Assembly (NCBI RefSeq): GCF_003326015.1
Contig: NZ_CP023860.1
Location: forward strand, 310,001 to 374,000
DNA: 64,000 nucleotides
Reading direction: 5' to 3'
From: Candidatus Thioglobus sp. NP1
Lineage (GTDB): Bacteria > Pseudomonadota > Gammaproteobacteria > PS1 > Pseudothioglobaceae
Part shown: piece by piece, positions 28,698 through 48,844 of the stretch
Position numbering within the stretch: the first letter of the stretch is position 1
Layout: every line of letters starts with the position of its first letter
Made by a program: the position numbers and the translations under genes
The notes under the pieces: model-generated
Database searches by the model: none
What the model saw: the letters and a program-made list of their open reading frames with translations, nothing else
What the model was told of the DNA's origin: nothing

Positions 28698-28774
28698 GGT
28701 TATGTAGCTCAGCTGGTTAGAGCACAGCATTCATAATGCTGGGGTCGGTGGTTCAAGTCCACCCATAACCACCA
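28698..28774 (+). tRNA. tRNA-Met elongator (CAT), CCA encoded
   Basis: 77 nt. Fully paired acceptor GGTTATG/CATAACC, D arm GCTC/GAGC, anticodon stem CAGCA/TGCTG with loop TTCATAA, T arm GGTGG/CCACC. The paired 1-72 end and the stem without three G-C pairs exclude the initiator. A CAT anticodon could also mark a lysidine tRNA-Ile, but the overall sequence matches elongator tRNA-Met better. No clear terminator follows; the accessory island begins here. Confidence 0.9.
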
Positions 28775-28995
28775 TATCCTATAAGGCTTTAAGCCATTTC
28801 ACTTAAATCAAAATATTGCTCCAGTACACACTCAGTACACAATAGGACTAAAAAACACCCCTTTTCTACACTTCGCTTAAGTTCAAATAATTATATAAAT
28901 AATAACAATTAAATACATAGTGACTAATAACCGTTGGTTTGAAGTGTATATAACCGATGGTTTAGATAAATACTATGAAAAAAGTACCATCCTTC
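28775..28995. other. Gene-free junction between tRNA-Met and the island, with short repeats
   Basis: No gene is seen here. It contains a weak hairpin just after the tRNA (AGGCTTTAAGCC), a tandem pair of CAGTACACA (28822-28830 and 28833-28841), and two near-identical 14-bp sites, ATAACCGTTGGTTT (28927-28940) and ATAACCGATGGTTT (28950-28963), each with an inner AACC/GGTT palindrome. Their place next to a tRNA 3' end fits an old attachment region of an integrated element; no integrase gene is in the window. The role is inferred. Confidence 0.5.
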
Positions 28996-29120
28996 GCATA
29001 TATATACTGACTTTGAAGGTACGGGTGGGGAGGCTCATTGCGATAACGGATAGATATATATACCCTCACTCACACATCAAACGAAGTTTGAATTTCTAAA
29101 TGAGCTGTAATTCCTGAATG
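28996..29120 (+). repeat. Island promoter repeat, copy A (long form)
   Basis: Upstream block 28996-29061 (GCATATATATACTGACTTTG, then a G-rich stretch and GAGGCTCATTG), then core 29062-29095 with a perfect TCAAAC-GAA-GTTTGA hairpin. -35-like TTGAAT (29088-29093), -10-like TGTAAT (29106-29111), and an ATG at 29118 exactly 6 nt after it. That ATG opens only a 6-codon frame (MKKIII, stop), resembling the remnant of a lost signal-peptide gene. The next real gene starts at 29232 from its own site. Confidence 0.8.
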
Positions 29121-29151
29121 AAAAAAATCATAATATAAAAAAAAAGAGTTA

Positions 29152-29180
29152 TTGAATGCCCTTTCTTACATATATAGTAT
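29152..29180 (+). promoter_or_regulatory. Promoter of the 29232 gene
   Basis: -35 TTGAAT (29152-29157), 17-bp spacer, -10 TAGTAT (29175-29180). It lies outside repeat copy A and is followed by a normal leader with TTAGGAG (29219-29225). Confidence 0.55.
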
Positions 29181-29231
29181 TCACTGTAAAAAATACATAC
29201 CTTATATTTACAATAACTTAGGAGTTAAAAA

Positions 29232-29597
29232 ATGACATTAACAAGGATTTATAAAATTTTTGGTGGCTTTCATATTTTCTTTGGATTAGTATTACTATCT
29301 GGCCTTGGACCTCTTCCAACTGACTGGGTTGCTTCTGTTGGAATTCCAACAATGGCCGAACATTTTGGCTCTGCGATGATGGTCATAGGTTATATGTTCT
29401 GGATGCTTCCAAGCTGGACATCTGAAGACCAGCTTAAAACTGCCACTATGCCATTGATATGGGCTCAATTTTTTCTATTCTTGATGCCAATCTATCATGT
29501 TGTAAATGGCTCGATACCTGCTGATGCTGGTTTCTGGCTACAGAGTGTAATCTTAGTAGTATTTATGGTGCTTTTCTATAGACAATCTCGCGCCTAA
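29232..29597 (+). CDS. Small four-helix membrane protein of unknown function
   Basis: 121 aa with four predicted membrane helices. Not recognised as a named family. It looks distantly like the 122-aa membrane protein at 7920-8288 (same length, four helices, FWMLPSWTSED against FAWMAPTWVGDN). Start chosen at the ATG 7 nt after TTAGGAG. Ended by a strong terminator at 29625-29654. First gene of the tRNA-Met island. Confidence 0.75.
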   Translation: MTLTRIYKIFGGFHIFFGLVLLSGLGPLPTDWVASVGIPTMAEHFGSAMMVIGYMFWMLPSWTSEDQLKTATMPLIWAQFFLFLMPIYHVVNGSIPADAGFWLQSVILVVFMVLFYRQSRA

Positions 29598-29624
29598 ATA
29601 TTAATTTATTCTATTTTAATATTC

Positions 29625-29654
29625 AAAAGGAGGTCATGATTGACCTCCTTTTTT
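29625..29654 (+). terminator. Intrinsic terminator
   Basis: AAAAGGAGGTCA (29625-29636) pairs perfectly with TGACCTCCTTTT (29641-29652) over a TGAT loop, continuing into T's. It separates the 29232 gene from repeat copy B seven bases later. Confidence 0.9.
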
Positions 29655-29660
29655 AATTAC

Positions 29661-29724
29661 ACCCTCCCTCACACATCAAACGAAATTTGGACTTGAGTTC
29701 AAGTTGATATACAATCCTAGTATG
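29661..29724 (+). repeat. Island promoter repeat, copy B (core form, drives a gene)
   Basis: Core 29661-29694 reads ACCCTCCCTCACACATC then AAACGAAATTTGGACTT. -35 TTGGAC (29687-29692), 17-bp spacer, -10 TACAAT (29710-29715), then CCTAGT and the ATG of the phosphodiesterase gene at 29722. With a start 7 nt after the -10 the mRNA would begin at the ATG, so it is predicted to be leaderless. Confidence 0.85.
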
Positions 29725-30567
29725 AAAAATAAAGTTATTTTGCTCATTTTAGATGGATTAGGTTATTCTTACGCGCGCAAGCTGATGGGAAATTTAGAAG
29801 GTTGGGTAGAGGCTGGAGATGCGAAGGTTTGGCAAGGCCAATCAGTCTTGCCCTCTGCGTCTGGCCCATGTTACGCCAGCATTCACACGGGACTCACTCC
29901 CCAAGACCATGGTGTGACCTCTAACTACCATCAAGGCAGACTGGAAAATGCTGACATTTTTAGTGCCGTCAAAGCTGCAGGTGGAACCACAGGAGCTGTA
30001 GCCCATTCATTCTTTTCAGATTATTTTCAATCCAGTCCATTTAATCACCTGCGCGACATGGAGGTGGACGACATTAATCGGCCTATTCAACACGCCCGCT
30101 TTTACACCATGACTGGAGAAAATAAAGCCCAGCCTGCAACACCTTCAGACATTGACCTGTTCTGGCAAATGAGTTTAGTAATTCAACGCCATCATCCGGA
30201 CTATTTTTTATTCCACTCCTGTACCCTAGACAGCTTAGGTCATAATTATGGCTTTGATTCCATTCAAATAGACAAAAATTGTTATACCATTGACGCAGCT
30301 CTGGGCGACTTTATCCCGCGCTGGCAAGAGCAAGGTTATGACGTCATAATCACCGCAGATCATGGCCAAAGCGCTCGGGGCCACCATGGTGGCACCGAAG
30401 CCATCATGCGCGACATTCCCATCTACTACTTTGCTAACCCTAACCATCCTGTTCAAGGGCCAGCACCAGATCATGTGATTCACCAAACCGCCATTGCACC
30501 CAGTATACTTCAACGCATGGGCGTTGCGATTCCTGAATCAATGCAATCCACCCCCGTGTGGACATAA
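29722..30567 (+). CDS. Alkaline phosphatase superfamily: type I phosphodiesterase/nucleotide pyrophosphatase-like
   Basis: 281 aa from the ATG at 29722. An upstream TTG (29704) lies inside the promoter and is rejected. Metal-dependent hydrolase of the alkaline phosphatase superfamily: first metal Asp in LLILDGLGYS, nucleophile region LPSASGPCYASIHTGLTPQD (Ser in the place of the usual Thr/Ser), DSLGHNYG and ITADHGQSARGHHGG with the other metal ligands. No signal peptide. The substrate is not determinable. The sequence is visibly richer in G and C than its neighbours, which suggests recent transfer. No ribosome-binding site; expected leaderless. Confidence 0.85.
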   Translation: MKNKVILLILDGLGYSYARKLMGNLEGWVEAGDAKVWQGQSVLPSASGPCYASIHTGLTPQDHGVTSNYHQGRLENADIFSAVKAAGGTTGAVAHSFFSDYFQSSPFNHLRDMEVDDINRPIQHARFYTMTGENKAQPATPSDIDLFWQMSLVIQRHHPDYFLFHSCTLDSLGHNYGFDSIQIDKNCYTIDAALGDFIPRWQEQGYDVIITADHGQSARGHHGGTEAIMRDIPIYYFANPNHPVQGPAPDHVIHQTAIAPSILQRMGVAIPESMQSTPVWT

Positions 30568-30603
30568 TAAAAATAATTTTTTTTTCCAATCAAAGATATA
30601 CAC

Positions 30604-30653
30604 ACCCTCCCTCACACATCAAACGAAGTTTGGACTTGTAATCCTACCCCATG
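30604..30653 (+). repeat. Island promoter repeat, copy C (orphan)
   Basis: Core 30604-30637 with TTGGAC (30630-30635); a -10-like TGTAAT (30637-30642) follows after only 1 bp, and the ATG at 30651 is followed at once by TAG. No plus-strand gene follows: the next gene is on the minus strand and its stop (30644) lies inside the repeat. Possibly a cassette whose gene was lost or replaced, with the spacer collapsed. Confidence 0.75.
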
Positions 30654-30928
30654 TAGTATTCATCTATTTGCGTCAAAACGGTTGTTGATGCAACGTCTGC
30701 ACCGGCTGCTTCTCTAATTTCTATAATATCAGCGCGCTCACCAAATGATTTTACAAATGATGGGTCTTTCGCTTCGATTAATGCATAAACAGCTGTTTCA
30801 TCTGGATTTGTACCTGCCCAAATCATCTTTGCACCTTGCTCATTCATCTGAGGCTCAAGACCTTTTGCCATCTCTGACCAGGTTTTCCAGCCCTTAGAAA
30901 TATTAATTGTCACCAACATACGTATCAT
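30644..30928 (-). CDS. Small protein of unknown function, possible ferredoxin-like alpha/beta fold
   Basis: 94 aa, no signal peptide or membrane segment. MIRMLVTINISKGWKTWSEM with later TAVYALIEAKDPSFVKSF suggests a dimeric alpha/beta-barrel type protein (as in monooxygenase-like small proteins), but the family is not recognised. It has its own ribosome-binding site (AAGGAATAAAAATG region). It is the only gene in the repeat-bearing island that runs against the repeats, and its 3' end overlaps repeat copy C. Confidence 0.7.
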   Translation of the reverse strand: MIRMLVTINISKGWKTWSEMAKGLEPQMNEQGAKMIWAGTNPDETAVYALIEAKDPSFVKSFGERADIIEIREAAGADVASTTVLTQIDEYYMG

Positions 30929-30976
30929 TTTTATTCCTTCTTATTATTAAAAAAATTTAATTATAGCTCAAAAAAA

Positions 30977-31031
30977 TCTCTCCCTCACATATCAAACGAA
31001 ATTTGGACTTTAATTTAAGTTAACATATAAT
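30977..31031 (+). repeat. Island promoter repeat, copy D (core form, leadered gene)
   Basis: Core 30977-31010, -35 TTGGAC (31003-31008), 17-bp spacer, -10 TATAAT (31026-31031): close to a perfect sigma70 promoter. Unlike the other active copies, the gene start at 31056 is 24 nt away and preceded by TAGGAGA. Confidence 0.85.
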
Positions 31032-31055
31032 TCTATTTTTTTAGGAGAGACTAAT

Positions 31056-31568
31056 ATGGCTCGATCAAAACATGTGGATTTAAATGTTCTAAGCTTCTCA
31101 ATCTATGCGATTGCCATTATCACATCAGGTGCTTATCTGGGTAACTTAATCAATATGGGAGTGGTACATGCGGCTTTCTGGTTAACCTTAGAGCCAGTTG
31201 CATTCATGAATGACTTCGCAGGTAAATTTGATTTGCTTGTGATGACTCTGCCCTTAACGTTTTTACCTAGCTTACTTGCGATAATTGTTGCTATCTGGAG
31301 CACACGGAAAACTATGCTCGCTCGAAATTATTGGCTTTGTGCGCTTGTTCTAACTTTGATCGGGCTTGGCCTATCTGCTGTCTACTTTTTACCAATGAAT
31401 AATGGGTTTGTTGCGCAATCATTTACACCAGAAGAGGCTCGTGTAAATCTTGAATTCTGGTACAACTTACATTGGGTCCGAGTTGCACTATCTGCTGTGT
31501 CTTGCCTTTTTACGCTCTTGGCATTCAAAGCTACGGTAAATGCTCACCACCAAATAATCCAAAGTTAG
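31056..31568 (+). CDS. Four-helix membrane protein, DUF1772 (anthrone oxygenase-like) type
   Basis: 170 aa with four membrane helices (about 12-34, 62-84, 94-116, 143-162). The layout and the segment TPEEARVNLEFWYNLHWVRV before the last helix resemble DUF1772/anthrone-oxygenase-like membrane proteins, where a W-x-x-x-H-W-x-R-x pattern is common. Function unknown. Good ribosome-binding site (TAGGAGA, 31043-31049). Driven by repeat copy D. Confidence 0.75.
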   Translation: MARSKHVDLNVLSFSIYAIAIITSGAYLGNLINMGVVHAAFWLTLEPVAFMNDFAGKFDLLVMTLPLTFLPSLLAIIVAIWSTRKTMLARNYWLCALVLTLIGLGLSAVYFLPMNNGFVAQSFTPEEARVNLEFWYNLHWVRVALSAVSCLFTLLAFKATVNAHHQIIQS

Positions 31569-31654
31569 AATTGGTAATGGCAATTCAAAACCTTATGTAA
31601 GGTTTGAGATGTAATGGTCGAATGAGGTCAATGAACAAAGTTACACATGAATAA

Positions 31655-31720
31655 ACCCTCCCTCACACATCAGACGCAATTTGGACTTATAATCTTTTTA
31701 TGAGATAAAATCTTATCATG
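31655..31720 (+). repeat. Island promoter repeat, copy E (double -10/ATG)
   Basis: Core 31655-31688 with TTGGAC (31681-31686). Two -10/ATG units follow: TATAAT-CTTTTT-ATG (31688-31702), whose frame stops after two codons, and TAAAAT-CTTATC-ATG (31706-31720), which starts the PhyH gene. The 6-nt gap is kept in both. The second -10 is 19 bp from the -35 box. Confidence 0.8.
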
Positions 31721-32449
31721 CAAAAATTAACACAACAAAAAGTCAATGAATTCAAATCTCAAGGCTTTCTTGTATTAGAAGATTTTGTTAGTTCAGGAGT
31801 ATTGTTAGAGCTTAAAGAGTCACTCAATAGCATCTTTAAAGAAATTCATAAAGAATCGAGAAGAGTAAAACAATCATATGACAATAAGCATTATGGTGAT
31901 ATCTCAAAAGCTGGTCGAAAATTTACTAAAAATCAAAGTAAATATTATCCTTCAATTCAGAAATACCTTAAAAGCAATCGTATAAAGGAAGTAGTTACAA
32001 CGTTACTTGATGGTGATGCATTTATTTTCAATGAACAATTCGTAACGAAAGAGCCTAGCACGCCGTCAAGCTTTAATTGGCATCAAGATTCAGGATACAT
32101 AAATTTTGATCATAAACCCTATTTGACAACTTGGTTGGCGCTTGATGATACCAATTCATTGAATGGACCTTTGTCGATTATTCCTACAAATATAGAGACC
32201 ACTTTAGAAGTATTTACTCACCAATGGTCAGACAAATCAAAAGACTTATTTATTGAGGTTGATGAAACTAAAGCAAAGACTTTACATGTTTCTGCAGGAA
32301 CTCTAGTGGTATTTTCTAGCCTTACTCCACATGCCTCTGGAGCAAATCAATCAGCCAAAACAAGAACAGCTTATCTAGCTCAATATTCATCAGAGCCAAT
32401 TATTGACCCAAATACAGGATTAGATAGAAATCAAGCGATTCCAATTTAA
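31718..32449 (+). CDS. Phytanoyl-CoA dioxygenase (PhyH) family protein
   Basis: 243 aa, usual size. Fe(II)/2-oxoglutarate-dependent dioxygenase fold. The iron triad is visible: H and D in NWHQDSGYINFD (about residues 120-128) and the distal His in LTPHASGANQS (about 205), followed by the Arg in KTRTAYLAQYS that binds 2-oxoglutarate. The N-terminus VNEFKSQGFLVLEDFVSS is the family opening. The substrate is unknown. No ribosome-binding site; the ATG lies 6 nt after a -10 box, so the mRNA is predicted leaderless. Confidence 0.87.
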   Translation: MQKLTQQKVNEFKSQGFLVLEDFVSSGVLLELKESLNSIFKEIHKESRRVKQSYDNKHYGDISKAGRKFTKNQSKYYPSIQKYLKSNRIKEVVTTLLDGDAFIFNEQFVTKEPSTPSSFNWHQDSGYINFDHKPYLTTWLALDDTNSLNGPLSIIPTNIETTLEVFTHQWSDKSKDLFIEVDETKAKTLHVSAGTLVVFSSLTPHASGANQSAKTRTAYLAQYSSEPIIDPNTGLDRNQAIPI

Positions 32450-32473
32450 ACTAATTACTAATTTAATTATATA

Positions 32474-32567
32474 GGGGAGCCCCTCTCTGCATTTCGGATA
32501 GATATATACACTCTCCCTCACACATCAAACAAAATTTGAATTCCTTTTGAACTATAATTCTATTATG
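32474..32567 (+). repeat. Island promoter repeat, copy F (medium form)
   Basis: A shortened upstream block (32474-32509: GGGGAGCCCC palindrome, then CGGATAGATATATACA as in copy A) and core 32510-32543. -35-like TTGAAT (32536-32541), -10 TATAAT (32553-32558) with only 11 bp between them, then TCTATT and the ATG at 32565, again a 6-nt gap. The short spacer means a different -35 may be used. Confidence 0.8.
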
Positions 32568-34391
32568 AAGAGACTATTCATACTTTTAATTCTATCCTTT
32601 TTCTCAGCTCAAGGTCTCGCTGGGTCTTGTCCTGATGGCAGTGAGCCAGTAAAGAGTATTTCTGCTGATGGTACTTATTTTATATACAACTGTGGAGGTT
32701 CAACAACCTCTTCTTATGAAACCTCAAGTGCAAAGTCCAATGGACTATTACCAGATACACTTAAACAAATCAAAGTTGTGAAGGATTGGGAACCCGTTGC
32801 TGATTTTGAAGCTTTAAAAGAATATGCCAAACAAGTCCCAATAAATGGATTTCGAGTTAAAAAAAATAAAGAATGGAATTGTGTAAATAGAATTACAAAT
32901 GTAAATCCATATCCAGATGAAGATTCACATCGTGCATGGTTTCATTGTCAAGCTTATGTTCATGGATTAGCGGCAAGCAATCCACAAATATTAGCAGACA
33001 TATTACTTACGTGGGCATCAGCTACAAAAGATCCTATGTTTGTTATACCTGTTACAAAGTCTGGGGGTTACAATGTTGCAGGCTATGATATACCATCCAC
33101 GATCGGAACATTTGCCCAGTCTTATGCGTTTTGGTATGACGAAATAGAGTACACACCAGATGAGCGTAAACAGGTAGATTCTTACATGACTAAAAAGCTA
33201 ATAGAGCAAAAGTTTCCTGTGATGAATTATGGAACAAGGCCTTGTGATATAAATAATATTAACAGTGTCTTTCATAAAGATACAGGTACAAATAACTGTG
33301 GCAACATTCGAATGAAAGTAGCAGTGGGTGAAATTATGCTGGGCTTTAGATTAGAAAATCAAACTTTGTTAGATAAAGGGCATGATGATATGTATGTGGT
33401 GCATGCTTTTGTTAATGAAGATGGTATTAATATTAATCACGCCTCTAGAGGTGGAAATACATTGAATTACTCTTGGGAATACACATACTATGCAAGTTTA
33501 CTAGCAGAGATATATGATGCAGTTGGCTATGACTATCTTGAACATACGCTTCCTCGCGGTGCAAAAGTGCATGAGTATTTAAGCTTTAATTACAGATTTT
33601 TAAAAGACTTTAAGCTGACTGCTCAATGGGCAAAATATGATGTTGGGTCAATGTGGCTTCCCTATAGTCAGATAAAGAATTTATCACAAGAAGAATATGA
33701 AAAAAGTGACAATGGTCAAAATGTTTATCGATGGGAAGATGGTGACAATGAATTTGTAAAAGCCCATACTAAATTTGTTAAGCGATATATGCCAGAACTT
33801 TATACTTTTGATGTAAAAAATTACATGGGTTCAAATTTTAATGAATCACCAAACTTTGGCGTTCATCCCTACATGCTTCATTTGGGTAATAATATTATAG
33901 AAGAAAATAACAATGTTGAGCTCATTCAGAAGCAAGCTGAACTCGAAGTTGAGCTCCTTCAGAAACAAGCTGAACTCCAAGATGAAAAAGATGCTATTGA
34001 CTGTAAAGAAAGTAGTCTTCGTGGAAGTGAATATATTGCCAAATGGTATGTGGCAATTCCAGAAGAAAACTGGGAGCTTAAATATAAAGGAATGGACAGA
34101 CTGACTTTAGCCACAGACAATTGTAAGGGCAAAATCCATAGCAGCGAAAGGTTCTGGCCATCGAGCTCAGATGGAGGTAAGTTAAAAAATAGTTCAGTTA
34201 GAGATAAATTAAAAATTAGATGGAAAACTAATGGTCAAATTACCATTTCAGGAGATCTTATATATTGGCCTTTAGGAGGGATTTCAGCCACATCTTTACA
34301 AGGTAATTTAAATAATGGCAAGATCTCTGGGGAAAACGATTTTGGAGATAAAGTTGTTATCGAAATTATTAGTAATAACAATCTTGAATAA
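32565..34391 (+). CDS. Large secreted protein, alpha-helical lyase-like core plus coiled coil (unassigned)
   Basis: 608 aa from the ATG at 32565, whose frame opens with a signal peptide (MKRLFILLILSFFSAQGLAG). The middle (about 60-420) is rich in aromatic, helix-forming stretches (TFAQSYAFWYDEIEYTPDE, VHAFVNEDGININHASRGG, SLLAEIYDAVGYDYLE) that recall (alpha/alpha) barrel alginate-lyase-like polysaccharide lyases; this is a weak resemblance. A coiled coil with a 33-bp DNA duplication (about 450-475) links to a C-terminal beta-rich domain (about 480-608). Driven by repeat F, expected leaderless. Confidence 0.75.
   Translation: MKRLFILLILSFFSAQGLAGSCPDGSEPVKSISADGTYFIYNCGGSTTSSYETSSAKSNGLLPDTLKQIKVVKDWEPVADFEALKEYAKQVPINGFRVKKNKEWNCVNRITNVNPYPDEDSHRAWFHCQAYVHGLAASNPQILADILLTWASATKDPMFVIPVTKSGGYNVAGYDIPSTIGTFAQSYAFWYDEIEYTPDERKQVDSYMTKKLIEQKFPVMNYGTRPCDINNINSVFHKDTGTNNCGNIRMKVAVGEIMLGFRLENQTLLDKGHDDMYVVHAFVNEDGININHASRGGNTLNYSWEYTYYASLLAEIYDAVGYDYLEHTLPRGAKVHEYLSFNYRFLKDFKLTAQWAKYDVGSMWLPYSQIKNLSQEEYEKSDNGQNVYRWEDGDNEFVKAHTKFVKRYMPELYTFDVKNYMGSNFNESPNFGVHPYMLHLGNNIIEENNNVELIQKQAELEVELLQKQAELQDEKDAIDCKESSLRGSEYIAKWYVAIPEENWELKYKGMDRLTLATDNCKGKIHSSERFWPSSSDGGKLKNSSVRDKLKIRWKTNGQITISGDLIYWPLGGISATSLQGNLNNGKISGENDFGDKVVIEIISNNNLE
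33918..33983 (+). repeat. 33-bp tandem duplication encoding a coiled coil
   Basis: Two adjacent 33-bp units (33918-33950, 33951-33983), each beginning GAGCTC and containing AAGCTGAACTC, with about 7 mismatches. They encode two ELxQKQAELxx heptad-like repeats, in frame. Confidence 0.85.
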
Positions 34392-34476
34392 GATAGAGTA
34401 AGAATATTGTTTGGTGGAGTGTGTAACATAAGCAACAGATTGTCCAATAAGTTTATAAACAATAAGGAATTGAGAA

Positions 34477-35577
34477 ATGAGAATCGAAGAAGATATAAAG
34501 TTAGATTATAACAATGTTTTAATAAGACCAAAACGAAGCACATTAGGTTCTCGCAAGGAAGTTGACTTAGAACGCGGTTTTAAATTTCGCAACTATAAAG
34601 GCGACACAATAGATGATTATCGACATTATCGAGGTGTGCCAATTATGGCCTCTAATATGGATGGAGTTGGTACATTTGAAATGGCAGACATCCTTTCAAA
34701 ACAACAAATTTTTACCTGTCTTGTGAAGACCCTAGCAGTAGACGAACTCGTTAATTACTTTAATGCCAAGAATGATTTTAGACGTGAACATGTGGCAATG
34801 AGTATTGGTATTACTGATAATGATTCAGCAAAGTTCAAAGAAGTATACAAACAAGTTGATAAAGGCAATCTGAAGTATGTTTGTATTGATGTAGCAAATG
34901 GATATAGTGAGCGTTTTAGCAACTTCGTTAGAAAGTTTAGAAAACAATATCCGAATGTAGTAATCATTGCAGGCAATGTAGTCACTGGTGAAATGACAGA
35001 AGAATTAATTCTAAATGGTGCTGATATCGTTAAAGTCGGCATCGGACCAGGAAGTGTTTGTACTACTCGTATTCAAACTGGTGTTGGATATCCACAATTA
35101 TCAGCAGTCATTGAATGTGCCGATGCGGCCCACGGACTAGGCGGACATATTATTGCTGATGGTGGTTGTGCTTCACCAGGTGATGTTGTTAAAGCATTTG
35201 CAGGAGGATCTGACTTTGTAATGCTAGGTGGAATGTTAGCTGGACATGACGAGGGTGGTGGTAAGATAATTACTAAAGAATATATTACAAAAGAAGTTGA
35301 TGTGACTGAAAAAAAGTCATTTATTCAGTTCTATGGCATGAGTTCAGATGCAGCAAATGTAAAACACTTTGGCGGACTGAAAGATTATCGAAGCTCTGAA
35401 GGTCGTGAAGTATTAGTCCCATATCGAGGTGAAGTATCAAAAACAATTCAGGACATATTAGGTGGTATTAGAAGTTCATGTACCTACGCAGGTGCTCAAC
35501 GTCTCAAACACTTAATGAGATGTACTACATTCATTCGTTGTTATGACACTCATAACAGAGTATATGAGAATAATTAA
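34477..35577 (+). CDS. guaC: GMP reductase
   Basis: 366 aa. Converts GMP to IMP with NADPH (purine salvage). IKLDYNNVLIRPKRSTLGSR at the start, ASNMDGVGTFEMA, and the catalytic loop GIGPGSVCTTRIQTGVGYPQ with the active Cys, then GGHIIADGGCASPGDVVKAF and DFVMLGGMLAGHDE. This is the GuaC form rather than IMP dehydrogenase: no CBS domains, short flap. Somewhat longer than E. coli GuaC (347). Upstream ATAAGGAAT acts as ribosome-binding site. No promoter repeat in front, unlike many genes of the island. Confidence 0.94.
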   Translation: MRIEEDIKLDYNNVLIRPKRSTLGSRKEVDLERGFKFRNYKGDTIDDYRHYRGVPIMASNMDGVGTFEMADILSKQQIFTCLVKTLAVDELVNYFNAKNDFRREHVAMSIGITDNDSAKFKEVYKQVDKGNLKYVCIDVANGYSERFSNFVRKFRKQYPNVVIIAGNVVTGEMTEELILNGADIVKVGIGPGSVCTTRIQTGVGYPQLSAVIECADAAHGLGGHIIADGGCASPGDVVKAFAGGSDFVMLGGMLAGHDEGGGKIITKEYITKEVDVTEKKSFIQFYGMSSDAANVKHFGGLKDYRSSEGREVLVPYRGEVSKTIQDILGGIRSSCTYAGAQRLKHLMRCTTFIRCYDTHNRVYENN

Positions 35578-35580
35578 TCT

Positions 35581-35711
35581 CGGATACATATACAGACTTT
35601 GAAGGATACGGGGGAGTAGCCTATTGATATCGGCTTTATATATATAATCCCTCCCTAATACCTCAAACGAAATTTTGACTTTGGTTCAAGCTCTTATAAA
35701 ATCCTAGTATG
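35581..35711 (+). repeat. Island promoter repeat, copy G (long form, drives a gene)
   Basis: Upstream block 35581-35647 (ACATATACAGACTTTGAAGG, GGGGGAGTAGCCTATTG), core 35648-35681, -35 TTTGAC (35674-35679), 17-bp spacer, -10 TAAAAT (35697-35702), CCTAGT, ATG at 35709. The last 11 bases, CCTAGTATGAA, are the same as in copy B although the genes are unrelated. Confidence 0.85.
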
Positions 35712-36062
35712 AAGAAAATACTCCTACTTTTATTGCTATCTATCAGTTTAAAAACCATCTCTTCATCTGGCTATCTTGATGAGTGGAATGATGACCAAAG
35801 TTGTGAGAGGGTGAATAATCAATCCCCCCACACTCGAATTGATGATGAGTTTATTATGAAAAGCTATTATTGTGTTGATGGTAGTTTTAATAAAGTAGAT
35901 AAAGCGCCAATTATTAACAGTTCAATTCTAGTAAATAAACTTAAAAGTATGAATAAAATATTAAGAGGCAAGAAACCTATTTATAGCACTAGTGGTGGCA
36001 CTCAAATTAAAATAGAGCCATTAGATGAAGAAAAATCCATAATACTTAATAAACTCTTTTAA
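35709..36062 (+). CDS. Small secreted protein of unknown function
   Basis: 117 aa with a signal peptide (MKKILLLLLLSISLKTISSS). The mature part has two cysteines (about C33 and C55) that may form a disulfide, and no recognised domain. No ribosome-binding site; the ATG lies 6 nt after the -10 of repeat G, so it should be translated from a leaderless message. Flanked on both sides by long-form repeats (G and H), which makes G-gene-H the clearest single cassette unit in the island. Confidence 0.7.
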   Translation: MKKILLLLLLSISLKTISSSGYLDEWNDDQSCERVNNQSPHTRIDDEFIMKSYYCVDGSFNKVDKAPIINSSILVNKLKSMNKILRGKKPIYSTSGGTQIKIEPLDEEKSIILNKLF

Positions 36063-36080
36063 TATGAGATTAGATCCCTA

Positions 36081-36204
36081 GCATATATATACTGACTTTG
36101 AAGTTATGGGGAGAGGCTCATTGAACTCGGTTAACTATAAATAATCCCTCCCTCACACATCAAACGAAATTTGGACTTTCAACTATTCTAACCTAATAAA
36201 TATG
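36081..36204 (+). repeat. Island promoter repeat, copy H (long form)
   Basis: Upstream block 36081-36144 (GCATATATATACTGACTTTG as in copy A, then GGGGAGAGGCTCATTG), core 36145-36178, -35 TTGGAC (36171-36176), 17-bp spacer, -10-like TAATAA (36194-36199). An ATG at 36202 opens a frame of five codons only; the next gene starts at 36272 on its own. The remaining 67 bp hold a second TATAAT near 36230 with a poor -35. Confidence 0.8.
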
Positions 36205-36271: not shown

Positions 36272-37300
36272 ATGATTGATCCGCGCCAAGCCAATAAGGC
36301 GGCATACAAGAAGTATTGTGACACATTTCGCAGCAACGCAAGTGGAGGTCTATTCAACGCCTGTAAGGAATTCCATAGTGATAATGCAGCCATTCATGTC
36401 ACTGCACCAATAAATTTTGTCAATGGTTTTTCTGGCTTGTATGAGTCATTATATGAACCTTTGCTATATGCCATGCCTGATCTTTATCGCCGTACTGAAT
36501 TACTTTTTTCCGGCAACGCTAAGGGCGGTGACTGGGTGACGGGCCATGGGCATCTTGTTGGAACCTTTAAGAAAGACTGGATGGGGATTCCCGCAACTGG
36601 ACAAATTGTGTTTATACGATTTGGCGAATTTCACCGTATGGAAGATGGCCGGGCATTAGAATCCTATCTATTTTTTGACATTATTGACCTGATGCGTCAG
36701 ATTGATCGCTGGCCACTGCCTGTTCCAAGCATTGGTGAAGAGTTTTTTATTCCTGGCCCCATTACTTGTGATGGGCTGGTGATGGCACCACAAGATGATG
36801 CTGACAGTAAAAAAAGCGTCAATATGGTCTTTGATATGTTGAAGTGCCTTTACACAAAAGATGAGGCTTGGCGTCCCTACTGGCATGAAAATATGATGTG
36901 GTACGGACCGGCTGGCTATGGAAGTTATATCGGTATTGATGGGTTTGCTCGGTTCCAAATGCCTTACGAAAGTGTTTTTGATCCTCGCCGAAAAGGGGAA
37001 ACTGGTTTAACTGGTGAACCTGGCTCAGATCTAGACAAAGCTGTCAAAGGACATTTCACCAGATTTGCAGAAGGAAATTATGTGGCATCCGGTGGATGGC
37101 CTTCTCATGGAAGTTATTTGACAAAGGACTGGTTGGGAGTGAAGGCTTCGGGACAGTTGTTCGCAGTTCGTGTTGCCGACTGGTGGCGCCGCGATGGTGA
37201 TCTGCTAGTTGAGAATTGGGTGTTTGTCGATCTTATCGATATGTTGTTGCAGCTTGACTATGATGTGTTTGAGGCGGTGGATATCAAGTTGGACTTATAA
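36272..37300 (+). CDS. Tandem SnoaL/NTF2-like domain protein
   Basis: 342 aa, no signal peptide. Two copies of an NTF2-fold, SnoaL-like domain: GDWVTGHGHLVGTFKKDWMG with GIPATGQIVFIRFGEFHRME (first half) and GGWPSHGSYLTKDWLGVKAS with GQLFAVRVADWWRRDGD (second half), each closing with a W/F-F-x-D-(I/L)-I-D-(L/M)-(M/L)-x-Q-(I/L) strand. SnoaL relatives include polyketide cyclases and hydroxylases; the reaction here is unknown. Base composition is richer in G and C than the neighbours, suggesting transfer from another genome. Weak ribosome-binding site. Confidence 0.85.
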   Translation: MIDPRQANKAAYKKYCDTFRSNASGGLFNACKEFHSDNAAIHVTAPINFVNGFSGLYESLYEPLLYAMPDLYRRTELLFSGNAKGGDWVTGHGHLVGTFKKDWMGIPATGQIVFIRFGEFHRMEDGRALESYLFFDIIDLMRQIDRWPLPVPSIGEEFFIPGPITCDGLVMAPQDDADSKKSVNMVFDMLKCLYTKDEAWRPYWHENMMWYGPAGYGSYIGIDGFARFQMPYESVFDPRRKGETGLTGEPGSDLDKAVKGHFTRFAEGNYVASGGWPSHGSYLTKDWLGVKASGQLFAVRVADWWRRDGDLLVENWVFVDLIDMLLQLDYDVFEAVDIKLDL

Positions 37301-38089: not shown

Positions 38090-38127
38090 TATACAAGAAT
38101 TCCCTAAAAAAATCATACTATATAAAG

Positions 38128-39249
38128 TTAAAGACTATTTTTGATTGGATTAGCAGGCTGATCATTTGTATGGCAGTGAACTCCCCCACCAGCCGCCCAA
38201 GAACTTAACATTTCAATTAAATATACGTCACGATTTGGAAAGTAATTTTCAATACGAGATTTAGCTGAGATATCAGTTTCAGTATTCCCAAAGCCAGGCA
38301 CAATTACAAATCCGTTACCAACTAACCAGTTCATGTAATTTGTATCAAATTTTTGATTATTATATTTTACAAAACCCTCAATAGGCTCTCTTATTACATT
38401 AAGCCCTGCCTTCTTAATTACTTTTGCTGCATTATCATAAATCTCAGCATCTTTACTATTTGGTTGACATAAAGAGCGAGATGTACATTGAACTACAACA
38501 ACAGTTCCTACTCCTATAAAGCGGGCGATGCCATCAATATGTCCTTTGGTAAGGTCTCCATCCGGAATACCCTCAATGAAAATAACATTTGTTACACCAA
38601 AGTGCTTCTTCAGGTCACTTTCTGCCTGTTGTTTATTGTAGTTCAAATTGCGACTTGGATCACCTAAGGTGCTCCAACTTGTAATAACTGTATCTAATCC
38701 GTTAAACTCTAAGTTGCCACGTTCATGTACTATGTTTATGTAATCAACAGGCATATCAAGTATCGCTCCAACTTTGTCCGGGACCATGTTGTCCAAACTA
38801 AAAGGAATGTCTGAGCCAAAAGCACCACCCCATGCATTAAAATCCCAATTTTGAATTCTTAACTCATTATCTTCTAAAACAAAAATAGGACCATTATCTC
38901 TCATCCAAGCATTATTGTTAGGCACTGCATGCCATTGGATATTATTATTTTGAGGGTCTGCTCCTATGTTATTTAACGCTTTACGCGCGTCTAGATAAAT
39001 TTTTTCAGAATTATATAAAATGTGTAGTTTTTCATAACGAGAAATAATCGCAGATATCTTTGCAAAGGTTGGTTCATATTCTTTTTCCCAATAACCAGGC
39101 CATTGCATCCAAATTGCTTCTTGAGGTTCCCATTCAGCTGGAACACGTTTTGTTGTATTGTTAACTTCATTTGCGAAAGTATTAACCTCAATCACTGAAA
39201 GTAAAAGTACTATTGAGATAAACCAAATTTTACTTTTTTTGGTTATCAA
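38128..39249 (-). CDS. Secreted agmatine deiminase/peptidylarginine deiminase-family protein
   Basis: 373 aa. Guanidine-modifying (PAD_porph) family: hydrolyses agmatine or arginine side chains to N-carbamoylputrescine or citrulline and ammonia. Seen: RVPAEWEPQEAIWMQWPGYW, AWMRDNGPIFV, VHERGNLEFNG, KGHIDGIARF and the catalytic Cys in AAGGGVHCHTNDQPANP. An N-terminal signal peptide (IWFISIVLLLSVIEVNTFAN) indicates export, unusual for an agmatine deiminase and more like secreted PADs. Last gene of the minus-strand operon, 3 nt after its upstream neighbour. Confidence 0.87.
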   Translation of the reverse strand: MITKKSKIWFISIVLLLSVIEVNTFANEVNNTTKRVPAEWEPQEAIWMQWPGYWEKEYEPTFAKISAIISRYEKLHILYNSEKIYLDARKALNNIGADPQNNNIQWHAVPNNNAWMRDNGPIFVLEDNELRIQNWDFNAWGGAFGSDIPFSLDNMVPDKVGAILDMPVDYINIVHERGNLEFNGLDTVITSWSTLGDPSRNLNYNKQQAESDLKKHFGVTNVIFIEGIPDGDLTKGHIDGIARFIGVGTVVVVQCTSRSLCQPNSKDAEIYDNAAKVIKKAGLNVIREPIEGFVKYNNQKFDTNYMNWLVGNGFVIVPGFGNTETDISAKSRIENYFPNRDVYLIEMLSSWAAGGGVHCHTNDQPANPIKNSL

Positions 39250-41078: not shown

Positions 41079-41098
41079 TACTTCCTCCTAATAAATAT

Positions 41099-41317
41099 TT
41101 ATTTATTTACAAAAAAAACTTCCTGTATCTCCATATCAAATGCCAGGGCAATCTTAAATGCAAGATCTAATGATGGAGTGTATTTGTATTTTTCAATGGC
41201 AACGACGGTCTGTCTTGAGATGCCTACAAGTTCTGCTAATTGCTGTTGTGTCATCTCATCATTATTAAATCTGAGTTTCCTGACAGTATTTTCAATATTA
41301 ATCTTTTTCTTAATCAT
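41099..41317 (-). CDS. XRE/Cro-type transcriptional regulator
   Basis: 72 aa, a bare helix-turn-helix domain: RKLRFNNDEMTQQQLAELVG then ISRQTVVAIEKYKYTPSLDL and a hydrophobic end. This compact form (YozG/YgzD-like) usually follows or precedes a small membrane protein gene, as here (2 nt after its stop). Likely binds the inverted repeats upstream of the membrane gene and controls the whole minus-strand operon. Confidence 0.9.
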   Translation of the reverse strand: MIKKKINIENTVRKLRFNNDEMTQQQLAELVGISRQTVVAIEKYKYTPSLDLAFKIALAFDMEIQEVFFVNK

Positions 41318-41319
41318 TA

Positions 41320-41739
41320 CTACTTGTAGAGGTAAACCTTTAAAAAAAGACTAACAATGCTTGCTGTAAATCCCGAAAAAGTAATAGCAATTAGGCCTGC
41401 ATTAATAGTGAGATTAAACCAGCCTAATAAAACAAGAGTTATTACAAGAGTAATACCAAATATTGCGCTACTAACTTGCAAGGCGTAGAGTTCAAAAATT
41501 TTATCCCTTTCATCATCAATATCTTTCTCAAGTTTGCCAGTAACCATTGAAAAGAGCATGTTCATAACTACATTAAGGGCAATAATTAAAATAATGCTGA
41601 TTCCAATGCCCTGAGCAAGCACTTTAGACACAGAATCTATAGTCATTATTGCACTTTCAGTTAAGTGGAGCAACATCCAAATCATCGCGATTAATGCTCC
41701 TATTATTTCTCCCAAGGTATTTCTAATTTTAATATTCAT
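41320..41739 (-). CDS. Four-helix membrane protein paired with the XRE regulator
   Basis: 139 aa, four membrane helices in two hairpins (about 10-30, 40-66, 85-105, 112-136), with an acidic cytoplasmic loop between (GKLEKDIDDERDKIFELYAL). The layout resembles DUF2178-like proteins that occur next to small XRE regulators in many bacteria; the family call is tentative. First gene of the operon running down to 38128. Its promoter region carries the inverted repeats described at 41759-41826. Confidence 0.75.
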   Translation of the reverse strand: MNIKIRNTLGEIIGALIAMIWMLLHLTESAIMTIDSVSKVLAQGIGISIILIIALNVVMNMLFSMVTGKLEKDIDDERDKIFELYALQVSSAIFGITLVITLVLLGWFNLTINAGLIAITFSGFTASIVSLFLKVYLYK

Positions 41740-41758
41740 TATGTATGTTATAAGTTAC

Positions 41759-41826
41759 TTAATGTATATTATAACAGATATAAAGTAAGATATAAATTAC
41801 GTAATGTAAAAAATAATATACATTAA
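41759..41826. promoter_or_regulatory. Candidate operator region of the XRE operon
   Basis: TTAATGTATATTAT (41759-41772) returns as its exact reverse complement ATAATATACATTAA (41813-41826). Between them TTACGTAATGTA (41797-41808) repeats TTACTTAATGTA (41755-41766) with one change. Three related sites in 70 bp directly upstream of the membrane/XRE gene pair suggest autoregulation. AT-richness raises the chance level, but 14 matching bases are well above it. Confidence 0.6.
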
Positions 41827-41961
41827 TTTCAAACCTGTGTACGGGAATAGTTTTTTTTGAGAATTAATAATATTGTATGGGTCTTTTTGAGATATTTACT
41901 TTCAAATAATTAACGGATATAATGCTTTTTTAAAATAATCTTGTCTGCGGAGAAACTTAGA

Positions 41962-47276: not shown

Positions 47277-47804
47277 ATGAAAAATTTATTGTTCTTTTTT
47301 CTTTTTTCTATAACTATTATTACTTCAGTAGGGGCTAATAGTGCTGATGAGTGGCAAAATGTTGATTTCAATATTGATTCGTTAAATCAATTAAATCAGT
47401 GTAATAGCTGTAATTTAAGAGACTCAGATTTTAACGGCTTAAACTTCATTGGAGCTAGTCTCAGTGGAGCAAACTTTATAGAAGCAAACCTTAGTGGCAC
47501 AAATTTCTTTGGATCAAACTTTGAAGGTTCAAGTTTATATGGCTCTAATCTGGAAGGTGCTAACTTAGAGAACACATCATTTTTTGCAGCAAATTTATTT
47601 GGTGTAAAGCTTAAAGAGGCGTGGATGATTGGGGCTGATTTGAGACAGGCAGACTTGGCAAAAGCTGACCTTACTAAAGCTAATCTTACTGACGCCAATC
47701 TTACAGGTGCAAACCTTATGGGCGCTATTCTCAATGGTGCAATTTTTTGCAATACTAAGACTCCATGGGGCATAGACAATTCTTCATGCGATTTAGATAA
47801 GTAG
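47277..47804 (+). CDS. Secreted pentapeptide-repeat protein
   Basis: 175 aa with a signal peptide (NLLFFFLFSITIITSVGANS). About 20 consecutive A(D/N)LxX repeats (from LRDSDFNGLNFIGASLSGAN to NLTGANLMGAILNGAIF) form a right-handed beta-helix. Cysteines before and after the helix (CNSCN and the closing FCNTKTPWGIDNSSC) may cap it. Exported; binding partner unknown. The antisense strand also has a long open frame, an effect of the repeat. Confidence 0.9.
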   Translation: MKNLLFFFLFSITIITSVGANSADEWQNVDFNIDSLNQLNQCNSCNLRDSDFNGLNFIGASLSGANFIEANLSGTNFFGSNFEGSSLYGSNLEGANLENTSFFAANLFGVKLKEAWMIGADLRQADLAKADLTKANLTDANLTGANLMGAILNGAIFCNTKTPWGIDNSSCDLDK

Positions 47805-48602: not shown

Positions 48603-48844
48603 TTTTTTTGACCAGAGTTACGAATTTTTTTTATCCATTTATAAGGCCGTATAGCAAACCAATATAGCCAAACTGGAATTCCTACTATATAGAATATATG
48701 CCAATAAACATTATAAAAATCAAACCAACTAATTATTATTTGATCATTGAGCTTTGAGTATGTAGTTGCAATAAAAAAAGCAAAAAGCATCCAAAGGACA
48801 CTGCAATAAAGAGCAACCCTAGTTTTTAAAGAGAAATTTATCAT
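48599..48844 (-). CDS. Small membrane protein coupled to the nitrilase-family enzyme
   Basis: 81 aa, two helices (about 8-26 and 44-64), basic C-terminus (RPYKWIKKIRNSGQKK). Not recognised. Overlaps the start of the carbon-nitrogen hydrolase gene. Divergent from the dehydrogenase gene at 48912. Confidence 0.65.
   Translation of the reverse strand: MINFSLKTRVALYCSVLWMLFAFFIATTYSKLNDQIIISWFDFYNVYWHIFYIVGIPVWLYWFAIRPYKWIKKIRNSGQKK

Follow-up and report, generated by a model that had tools for sequence, protein, structure and literature searches.

The 64,000-nucleotide stretch of the Candidatus Thioglobus sp. NP1 genome analysed here (hereafter the window; positions 310001-374000 of its contig, NZ_CP023860.1) carries an array of eight direct copies of a short repeat, which we term the core, with genes lying between the copies. 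Comparison of this array with those of related genomes indicates that the core bounds mobile, mostly single-gene cassettes. Across the loci compared, cores in strictly direct orientation separate mostly single genes, the whole units that they delimit recur with unrelated neighbours in the arrays of other species, and the homology shared by such units ends in or near the core; in one species after another, a core also lies just after the same tRNA-Met gene, with varying genes behind it. We regard site-specific recombination at the core by a recombinase, operating in integron-like cassette arrays, as the probable explanation of these patterns, with homologous recombination as its main rival.

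A conserved core in direct arrays

All eight cores lie on the forward strand (Table 1), as a first-pass annotation of the window had proposed. A position weight matrix (PWM) built from the eight copies scores each of them at 48-61 bits, against 3.0 for the next-best site on either strand of the 64 kb. The core consensus, ACCCTCCCTCACACATCAAACGAAATTTGGACTTTA, spans about 34-36 bp, with positions 3-34 forming the conserved stretch. Searches with a 33-mer allowing up to three mismatches yielded five matches in the window and none in 100 shuffles, and on the whole NP1 genome (one contig of 1,689,404 bases) they returned the same five sites only, recovering 5/8 array copies; a 25-mer with the same tolerance recovers 7/8 and gave seven matches, all within the array. 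The copies found in this genome are those of a single array and not a set scattered genome-wide, although a more diverged copy elsewhere may have escaped these searches. The annotation had also described a small hairpin as a feature of the core. In its perfect form, CAAAC-GAA-GTTTG, it requires a G at core position 24, which is present in only 34 of 222 copies from the genus, and since 184 of the 222 carry an A at this position the hairpin is not conserved.

Directly upstream of the cores at 29062, 35648 and 36145 and, in part, of the core at 32510 lies a longer conserved element of about 72 bp. This long form, consisting of CATATWTATTCAGACTTTGAAGG and then a G-rich run, lies ahead of the core in 43 of 176 genus sites and is missing from the remaining 133; in a control, 2 of 170 windows placed 300-400 bp upstream equal its match count. 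A hairpin made of long form and core (GGGGAG/CTCCC, TTTGA/TCAAA) was suggestive on the consensus fold, but inspection by eye showed no compensation among its variants.

The core was searched for in 29 genomes of the genus, inferred to be Pseudothioglobus, of which 11 are at least 90% complete (genomes and loci are labelled G and L, respectively). Using the 25-mer with up to three mismatches, we found it in 28 of the 29 genomes and in both genomes examined from the sister genus, the kind of recurrence in relatives that the annotation had proposed to look for, and in none of 52 genomes from nine other genera. A reversed-pattern control gave no matches with the 25-mer and a single match, in the NP1 genome itself, with a 23-mer. 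In a collection of 84,980 species genomes, the exact 23-letter pattern occurs in at least 80 stretches; among the matches listed, 73 of 80 are labelled Thioglobus, Pseudothioglobus, SUP05 or uncultured gammaproteobacteria, and the other seven of 80 are labelled Hellea, Rhodospirillales, Uhrbacteria or PS1 clade, for which misbinning and true transfer are both possible. Viral contigs held no exact match to the 23-letter pattern, and neither phage records nor 72,556 plasmid records matched the long form plus core, on which grounds carriage by phages or plasmids was rejected.

To describe array architecture we used 143 loci, keeping 222 non-duplicate cores of 361 with identical core contexts counted once; the loci were drawn from core matches and are therefore enriched for cores, and the PWM was refined on the same loci that it scans. 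One case of identical contexts is L048 (G015, C57), in which core matches are mirrored between the contig ends, a pattern suggestive of a large inverted duplication that may be an artefact of amplification. All adjacent cores less than 4 kb apart (123/123 pairs) share the same orientation, with a median spacing of 1221 bp. Open reading frames (ORFs), called mechanically at 60 aa or more, number exactly one in 84 of the 123 intervals (67 forward and 17 reversed relative to the core), none in seven and more than one in 32, and the median gap is 35 bp from a core to the next ORF and 38 bp from the preceding ORF to a core. With genes as intervals at this spacing, the arrays are not clustered regularly interspaced short palindromic repeats (CRISPR), as the annotation had held.

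Core identity averages 0.855 within genomes and 0.843 between genomes, and adjacent cores are 0.843 identical, compared with 0.850 for random pairs. Because neighbouring cores resemble one another no more than random pairs do, and those of one genome hardly more than those of different genomes, there is no sign of target duplication or local homogenisation, and a target-site-duplication model was rejected on the former ground. The sequences thus suggest a common pool of cores held near one consensus, which is what recognition of the site by a conserved factor would produce. As a short non-coding repeat found in many intergenic spaces, the core resembles miniature inverted-repeat transposable elements and repetitive extragenic palindromes, but differs from them in its direct arrays and in the lack of any excess similarity between adjacent copies. 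It also differs in that no copies were found outside the array in the NP1 genome and that the copies border mobile genes.

The 3' part of the core contains the hexamer TTGGAC at positions 26-31. The annotation had placed a -35-like box at this offset, where the window cores indeed read TTGGAC in five of eight copies, TTGAAT in two and TTTGAC in one. A TATAAT-like hexamer (at least 5/6 matching) follows at a spacing of 17 in 30% and of 18 in 12% of sites (42% together), whereas the remaining spacings between 8 and 39 give 0-6%. Among single-ORF cassettes in forward orientation this -10 box reaches 36% (spacing 17) and 16% (spacing 18), against 18% and 0% in reversed ones; about half of the forward cassettes thus have a recognisable promoter, because the core supplies TTGGAC. 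The view of the core as a promoter-bearing repeat consequently stands in part: it carries -35 information into which many cassettes fit, but not all cassettes do so, a -10-like hexamer (at least 5/6) at spacing 16-18 being found behind only 3/8 window cores. Seven of the eight window copies precede forward ORFs; the copy at 30604, in a correction to the annotation, precedes an ORF on the opposite strand.

This strong -35/-10 geometry, and the seven window cores ahead of forward ORFs, are also what would be seen in a plain regulon, in which the core is a transcription-factor or promoter element before accessory genes and has no role in mobility. Such a regulon would not predict that all 123 neighbouring pairs are direct, nor that units move with both borders at cores, and it sits poorly with the 17 of 84 single-ORF intervals in which the ORF is reversed; we consider it highly improbable. 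Cores before reversed ORFs do not score significantly worse than those before forward ORFs (median 47.9 versus 55.4, P = 0.59, n = 17 versus 67, a comparison of low power), and their -10 match is lower (P = 0.015). That these cores are not worse argues, with little power, for a role beyond promotion.

Movement of whole cassettes

Among the 123 intervals compared, 13 whole cassettes are common to different loci, with 84.7-98.5% identity at a coverage of at least 0.95 and identical length in six cases; none of the 13 pairs was dropped. In 11 of them both flanks could be judged, and 10 of these differ on both sides, one differs on one side and none keeps both, while the remaining two differ on their sole visible side. 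Examples are an aldo-keto reductase cassette (L041:8288-9304 and L045:1226-2241, 98.5%) and a cassette of the peptidyl-arginine-deiminase family (L050 and L052, 96.3%). The window cassette at 30977-31655 recurs at 97.6% in L073, where it follows a core, the sequence upstream differs and the right border is not visible. These recurrences of whole core-to-core units in new surroundings agree with the cassette-like system envisaged in the first-pass annotation, although not with its suggestion that the mobile part is a promoter: the recurring unit is the entire core-to-core interval, gene included, with unrelated sequence on both sides in 10/11 judged pairs.

When single sites from different loci are paired, 180 pairs are alike downstream only, 69 upstream only and five on both sides, counts that are not independent, as one paralogous family has 17 members. 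To locate the exchange, we compared junction pairs with at least 85% ungapped identity outside the core, where divergence of up to 15% limits resolution. At right-hand junctions (23 independent), the mismatch rate falls short of the level in random core pairs as far as core position 5 and is near random from position 6, and at left-hand junctions (16 independent) it is near random to about position 16 and mostly lower from positions 17-21 on. The mismatch profiles therefore place the exchange within the core.

We propose that a recombinase acts in the core, with exchange occurring somewhere in positions ~6-21. The unit excised or inserted would then comprise the 3' part of one core with its -35 box, the cassette's own promoter, the gene and the 5' part of the next core, and such units would travel through circles or between arrays.

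Several observations weigh against this proposal. No single exchange point fits the junctions: in the independent pairs, a model with two separate edges is better than the best one-point model by about 17 log units, a pattern expected of spread crossovers or heteroduplex. Certain recurring units diverge already in the long form and not in the core (L041/L045 and L038/L082), and the five site pairs alike on both sides keep both of their neighbours. Among the recombinase families searched in the 29 genomes, none is tied to the arrays. IntI (TIGR02249) exceeds its cut-off in 0/29 genomes, the best score, 78.1 bits against a cut-off of 265, belonging to a 295-aa XerD-like protein. Serine resolvases occur in 4/29 genomes and a Y1 transposase in 1/29, and both were rejected as the array enzyme for being too rare; a tRNA-targeting genomic-island integrase of 333-349 aa is listed in 9/29, its G019 copy with one internal stop.

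Part of this evidence is accommodated by homologous recombination, under which the cores would be conserved promoter repeats and RecA-dependent exchange, for instance during natural transformation, would take place at cores and long forms with no dedicated recombinase. The lack of an array-linked recombinase, the spread of the exchange edges and the exchanges within the long form all fit this explanation; long form and core together provide more than 100 bp of related sequence in 43/176 sites, and the part that the core plays in promoters could explain its conservation. Yet 133/176 sites have no long form, and the longest identical run between random core pairs has a median of 15 bp, with 11.5% of pairs reaching 27 bp. 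We take identical runs as short as those between random cores to be a poor RecA substrate. Furthermore, whole cassettes change both neighbours yet keep their core-to-core borders, and the cores before reversed ORFs are not significantly more decayed in the comparison given above. We therefore hold homologous recombination to be rather unlikely, and retain site-specific recombination at the core as the preferred explanation.

The tRNA-Met locus and candidate recombinases

The window array starts 288 bp after a tRNA-Met(CAT) gene, which is itself preceded by an ORF that we take to be coaE. We searched for this tRNA-Met junction in the 29 genus genomes and inspected the loci of 21, of which 17 have the complete tRNA and four are matches without it. 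In all 12 genomes with about 1.5 kb of downstream sequence (12/12), a core lies 240-873 bp after the tRNA on the same strand, so that relatives having the locus and enough sequence do not lack the repeat. These cores score 35-67, the weakest being those of G023 (35) and G001 (42); in the other five of the 17 loci the sequence ends 42-968 bp after the tRNA, with no core within. First-gene lengths at nine of the 12 loci are 121, 350, 375, 381, 761, 97, 71, 815 and 385 aa. Eight first genes could be classified: three (G004, G015 and G019) belong to the 17-member family, two (G006 and G022) are of Rieske type and three form families of their own. The comparison across species that the annotation had called for thus finds the repeat staying behind tRNA-Met while the genes vary, yet with 3/8 classified first genes in one family and 2/8 in another. 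Five window cassettes, forming one block, may be absent from the same site in G004 and G019, although this indication depends on the 17-member paralogous family.

In the proposed mechanism, the core behind tRNA-Met would be the entry point of the array. A same-strand tRNA lies at most 1.5 kb upstream of 11/71 array starts, compared with 2.9% of random positions, and eight of these 11 are the tRNA-Met locus; 59/71 array starts have no tRNA within 1.5 kb, and 4/59 array ends have one within 4 kb. The last 40 bases of tRNA-Met have no further exact copy in the window. Separately, we noted three places (L196:1340, L200:13 and L212:9194, reverse strand) that hold only the 3' part of tRNA-Met (45-53 bp, 100% identity), with a core 216-1209 bp later. 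They lie in G023, G002 and G028, and in G002 the contig starts there, so that the 5' part may just have been cut off. These partial copies are possibly traces of islands integrated at tRNA-Met.

With respect to the enzyme, our guess is a tyrosine recombinase. Two types of this family are widespread in the genus, one of 294-295 aa in 25/29 genomes and one of 305-342 aa in 23/29 (one of them cut), and other matches are sporadic. Naming them by length, we take the former to be XerD-like and the latter XerC-like; they are the only tyrosine recombinases found in most genus genomes. In G012 (94% complete, 8 core matches) only the Xer-like pair was found, and in G018 (95% complete, 36 core matches) the island integrase was not found either.

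This distribution makes XerC-dependent cassettes a candidate, in which XerC/XerD would use the core as half of a dif site, with a XerC-like arm over positions 15-25, a spacer of 6 bp over 9-14 and a degenerate XerD arm, in the manner of dif modules or of mobile elements that exploit Xer. The reverse-complement core segment ATTTCGTTTGA matches the XerC arm of published pdif sites at 9/11 positions (4.6% of shuffles) and that of the genome's own dif at 8/11 (13% of shuffles), and the implied spacer falls inside the exchange zone. Such a match is reached by 29% of shuffles when both own Xer arms are allowed, however, and no XerD arm was found in the core. Against the whole of its own dif the core matches at 13/27 positions, with shuffles averaging 12.1, and the identity of the whole core with dif or pdif was rejected on this comparison, the XerC-like half site being kept as a weak lead. 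The dif-like site is single in the 22/29 genomes where it was found, the other seven being 54-81% complete. Moreover, pdif sites come in opposite orientations, C/D and D/C, in the passages of PMC13141974 that describe dif modules of Acinetobacter plasmids, whereas neighbouring cores are all direct. We judge this candidate unlikely.

Alternatively, the tRNA-targeting island integrase could itself be the cassette recombinase, using the 3' end of its own gene as an attI-like site. In G015 a tRNA-His gene precedes the integrase, whose stop codon is immediately followed by the long form and then, in turn, by core, cassette, core, cassette and core. Pieces of the 3' end of the integrase gene are present in three islands, and the motif TTTCAGAATAAACTACAAT behind most such ends also follows a core in G006. 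This integrase was seen in only 9/29 genomes, and is not found in G012 or G018 despite their 8 and 36 core matches; in addition, the G006 island is bounded by tRNA-Arg repeats and not by cores, and G015 offers the only direct integrase-core adjacency that we saw. The island integrase is accordingly a distinctly unlikely candidate. The Xer and island-integrase readings are partly versions of site-specific recombination at the core, and the probabilities that we attach to them overlap with that of the latter.

The integrase ends also present a pattern of their own. Whole or as a fragment, the 3' end has in most places TTTCAGAATAAACTACAAT (with 0-2 mismatches) and a different gene behind it, which resembles a second cassette border. 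The places concerned are L166:12540 and L167:7508 (G000, ~962.5 and 973.5 kb), L168:1890 and 7079 (G006), L172, L173, L174 and L175; the fragment at L175:6341 is followed by long-form-like sequence and that at L168:6451 by neither. The motif occurs in 14/29 genomes (control 0), and about half of its 21 places are without an integrase end. In G006, L054:6834 together with L168 (874.6-888.3 kb) marks an island delimited by a pair of identical tRNA-Arg copies (112-bp repeat, 98%); one of its ends holds the integrase, and the other an inward-pointing core and then TTTCAGAATAAACTACAAT.

Cassette content and comparison with known systems

The features of the window array are listed in Table 1. No integrase and no transposase was recognised among the 10 window array ORFs scanned, five of which are without a family, in line with the annotation's statement that the array is not a recognised insertion sequence. 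Behind the last core, the SnoaL-like gene has a close relative that, by eye in translations, also lies directly behind a core in G002 (L045). Further downstream, a deiminase-type gene (38122-39249) shares 95% identity with a core-bounded cassette of G014 and 94% with another of G003; we found no core next to it here, and it is possible that it represents a decayed or differently inserted cassette. Three more segments (41090-41828, 47334-47788 and 48633-48844) are 71-78% similar to cassettes of other genomes (56-87% covered), with no cores nearby, and the island may extend beyond the last core.

Table 1. Features of the window array, with positions numbered from the first base of the window
Feature	Position	Strand	Basis
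tRNA-Met(CAT), upstream array anchor	28698..28774	+	ARAGORN; Rfam tRNA; same locus in relatives
Long-form element upstream of core 1	28990..29061	+	Genus-site comparison
Core copy 1, proposed array entry site	29062..29097	+	PWM
Cassette 1 ORF, 121 aa, no family match	29232..29597	+	ORF list, family scan
Core copy 2	29661..29696	+	PWM
Cassette 2 ORF, 287 aa, type I phosphodiesterase-like	29704..30567	+	PF01663, 4.9e-22; ATG at 29722 likelier start, by eye
-10-like box TACAAT, 17 bp after TTGGAC of core 2	29710..29715	+	
Core copy 3	30604..30639	+	PWM
Cassette 3 ORF, 94 aa, reversed versus core, no family match	30644..30928	-	ORF list, family scan
Core copy 4	30977..31012	+	PWM
-10-like box TATAAT, 17 bp after TTGGAC of core 4	31026..31031	+	
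Cassette 4 ORF, 170 aa, anthrone-oxygenase-like	31056..31568	+	Pfam, 26.7 bits, just below cut-off of 27.3
Core copy 5	31655..31690	+	PWM
Cassette 5 ORF, 243 aa, phytanoyl-CoA dioxygenase family (PhyH)	31718..32449	+	PF05721, 2.7e-23
Core copy 6	32510..32545	+	PWM
Cassette 6 first ORF, 614 aa, no family match	32547..34391	+	ATG at 32566 likelier start, by eye
Cassette 6 second ORF, 366 aa, GMP reductase	34477..35577	+	NF003470, 519.3 bits, cut-off 397
Long-form element upstream of core 7	35576..35647	+	Genus-site comparison
Core copy 7	35648..35683	+	PWM
-10-like box TAAAAT, 17 bp after TTTGAC of core 7	35697..35702	+	
Cassette 7 ORF, 117 aa, no family match	35709..36062	+	ORF list, family scan
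Long-form element upstream of core 8	36075..36144	+	Genus-site comparison
Core copy 8, last	36145..36180	+	PWM
Gene after last core, 342 aa, SnoaL-like	36272..37300	+	PF07366, 1.8e-18

Across the loci, the longest ORF per cassette has a median length of 318 aa (n = 116). Together with the 10 window genes, we scanned 20 representatives of the 72 cassette families, mainly longer ones, against Pfam, and 18/20 representatives have a family, mostly of enzymes and transporters, while 2/20 have none. The enzymes comprise a fumarase/lyase, a Rieske oxygenase, a fatty-acid desaturase, an NAD(P)H-hydrate dehydratase, an FAD-dependent oxidoreductase with a GCV_T domain, an aldo-keto reductase, a deiminase, a transhydrogenase subunit, a DEAD helicase, a pyridoxal-phosphate enzyme and a beta-lactamase-family protein; the other representatives include a permease, an ABC transporter and repeat proteins (FG-GAP, MORN, pentapeptide and TPR). 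PADLOC, run on 10 proteins, matched three (a protease domain, an ABC-type ATPase assigned to mad3, and TPR repeats), which we take to be domain-level matches only.

Integrons carry tandem direct cassettes with a recombination site at each border, some with promoters of their own, and the cassette genes of sedentary integrons are mostly of unknown function, according to the parts of PMC8618304 that treat these elements. Like integrons and clusters of attC sites lacking integron-integrases (CALIN), the core arrays are tandem and direct, with mostly one ORF per unit and a site at each border; their cassettes cross the species of a genus, in some cases have their own promoters, and appear mobile as units, 10 of the 11 judged pairs differing on both sides. 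They differ in that their site has a conserved sequence and holds the -35 box used by many cassettes, and in that 18 of the 20 scanned proteins, mainly longer ones, have a Pfam family. The attC site is defined by the box consensus RYYYAAC and GTTRRRY. Allowing 40-130 nt between the two boxes, we found the pair in 0/215 sites and twice in shuffles, and GTTRRRY alone in three cores. An attC identity of the core, which the annotation had not thought obvious, was rejected on this box pattern together with the lack of an IntI over cut-off. The shared architecture and direct repeats would suit a strongly diverged integron or CALIN with unrecognised attC sites, but the same two results, and the absence by eye of a compensating stem in the long form, make this the least probable of the explanations considered here.

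In dif modules, too, small gene modules are bounded by short conserved sites, as those passages of PMC13141974 describe. The core is unlike dif beyond one weak XerC-like arm, all 123 neighbouring pairs are direct where pdif sites occur in both orientations, and its long form plus core is unmatched in the plasmid records. The excess of array starts near a same-strand tRNA recalls tRNA-targeted islands, although eight of the 11 such starts are one locus and most starts have no tRNA within 1.5 kb; moreover, an island of this kind duplicates its tRNA, as in G006, whereas cores mostly delimit a single gene that carries a short site of its own.

Gene-cassette arrays that work as these appear to do are known, but we know of no precedent for the site, its coupling to a promoter and the missing integrase. 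Among the best-matching titles in searches of the open-licence literature, we found no account of the core repeat. Whether this is a cassette system independent of integrons and dif modules is, in our estimate, evenly balanced. In such a system the 34-36 bp site would be both recombination site and -35 half of a promoter, marine bacteria would use it to swap single, ready-to-express metabolic genes between species, entry would occur behind tRNA-Met, and the recombinase would be either an unknown enzyme or a repurposed XerC or island integrase.

The means by which marine bacteria maintain gene diversity on small genomes have yet to be explained. For SUP05 this question is raised explicitly in a study of Arctic cultures (PMC12421898), which reports four cultured strains with 95% ANI and in whose main text the words cassette and integrase do not appear. 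A genus-wide cassette system would be a concrete and testable answer, with a cargo that includes fumarase/lyase, GMP reductase, Rieske oxygenase, aldo-keto reductase and transporters. It would also take its place next to integrons and dif modules as another type of cassette array, one whose site doubles as part of a promoter and would be of interest for genetic engineering.

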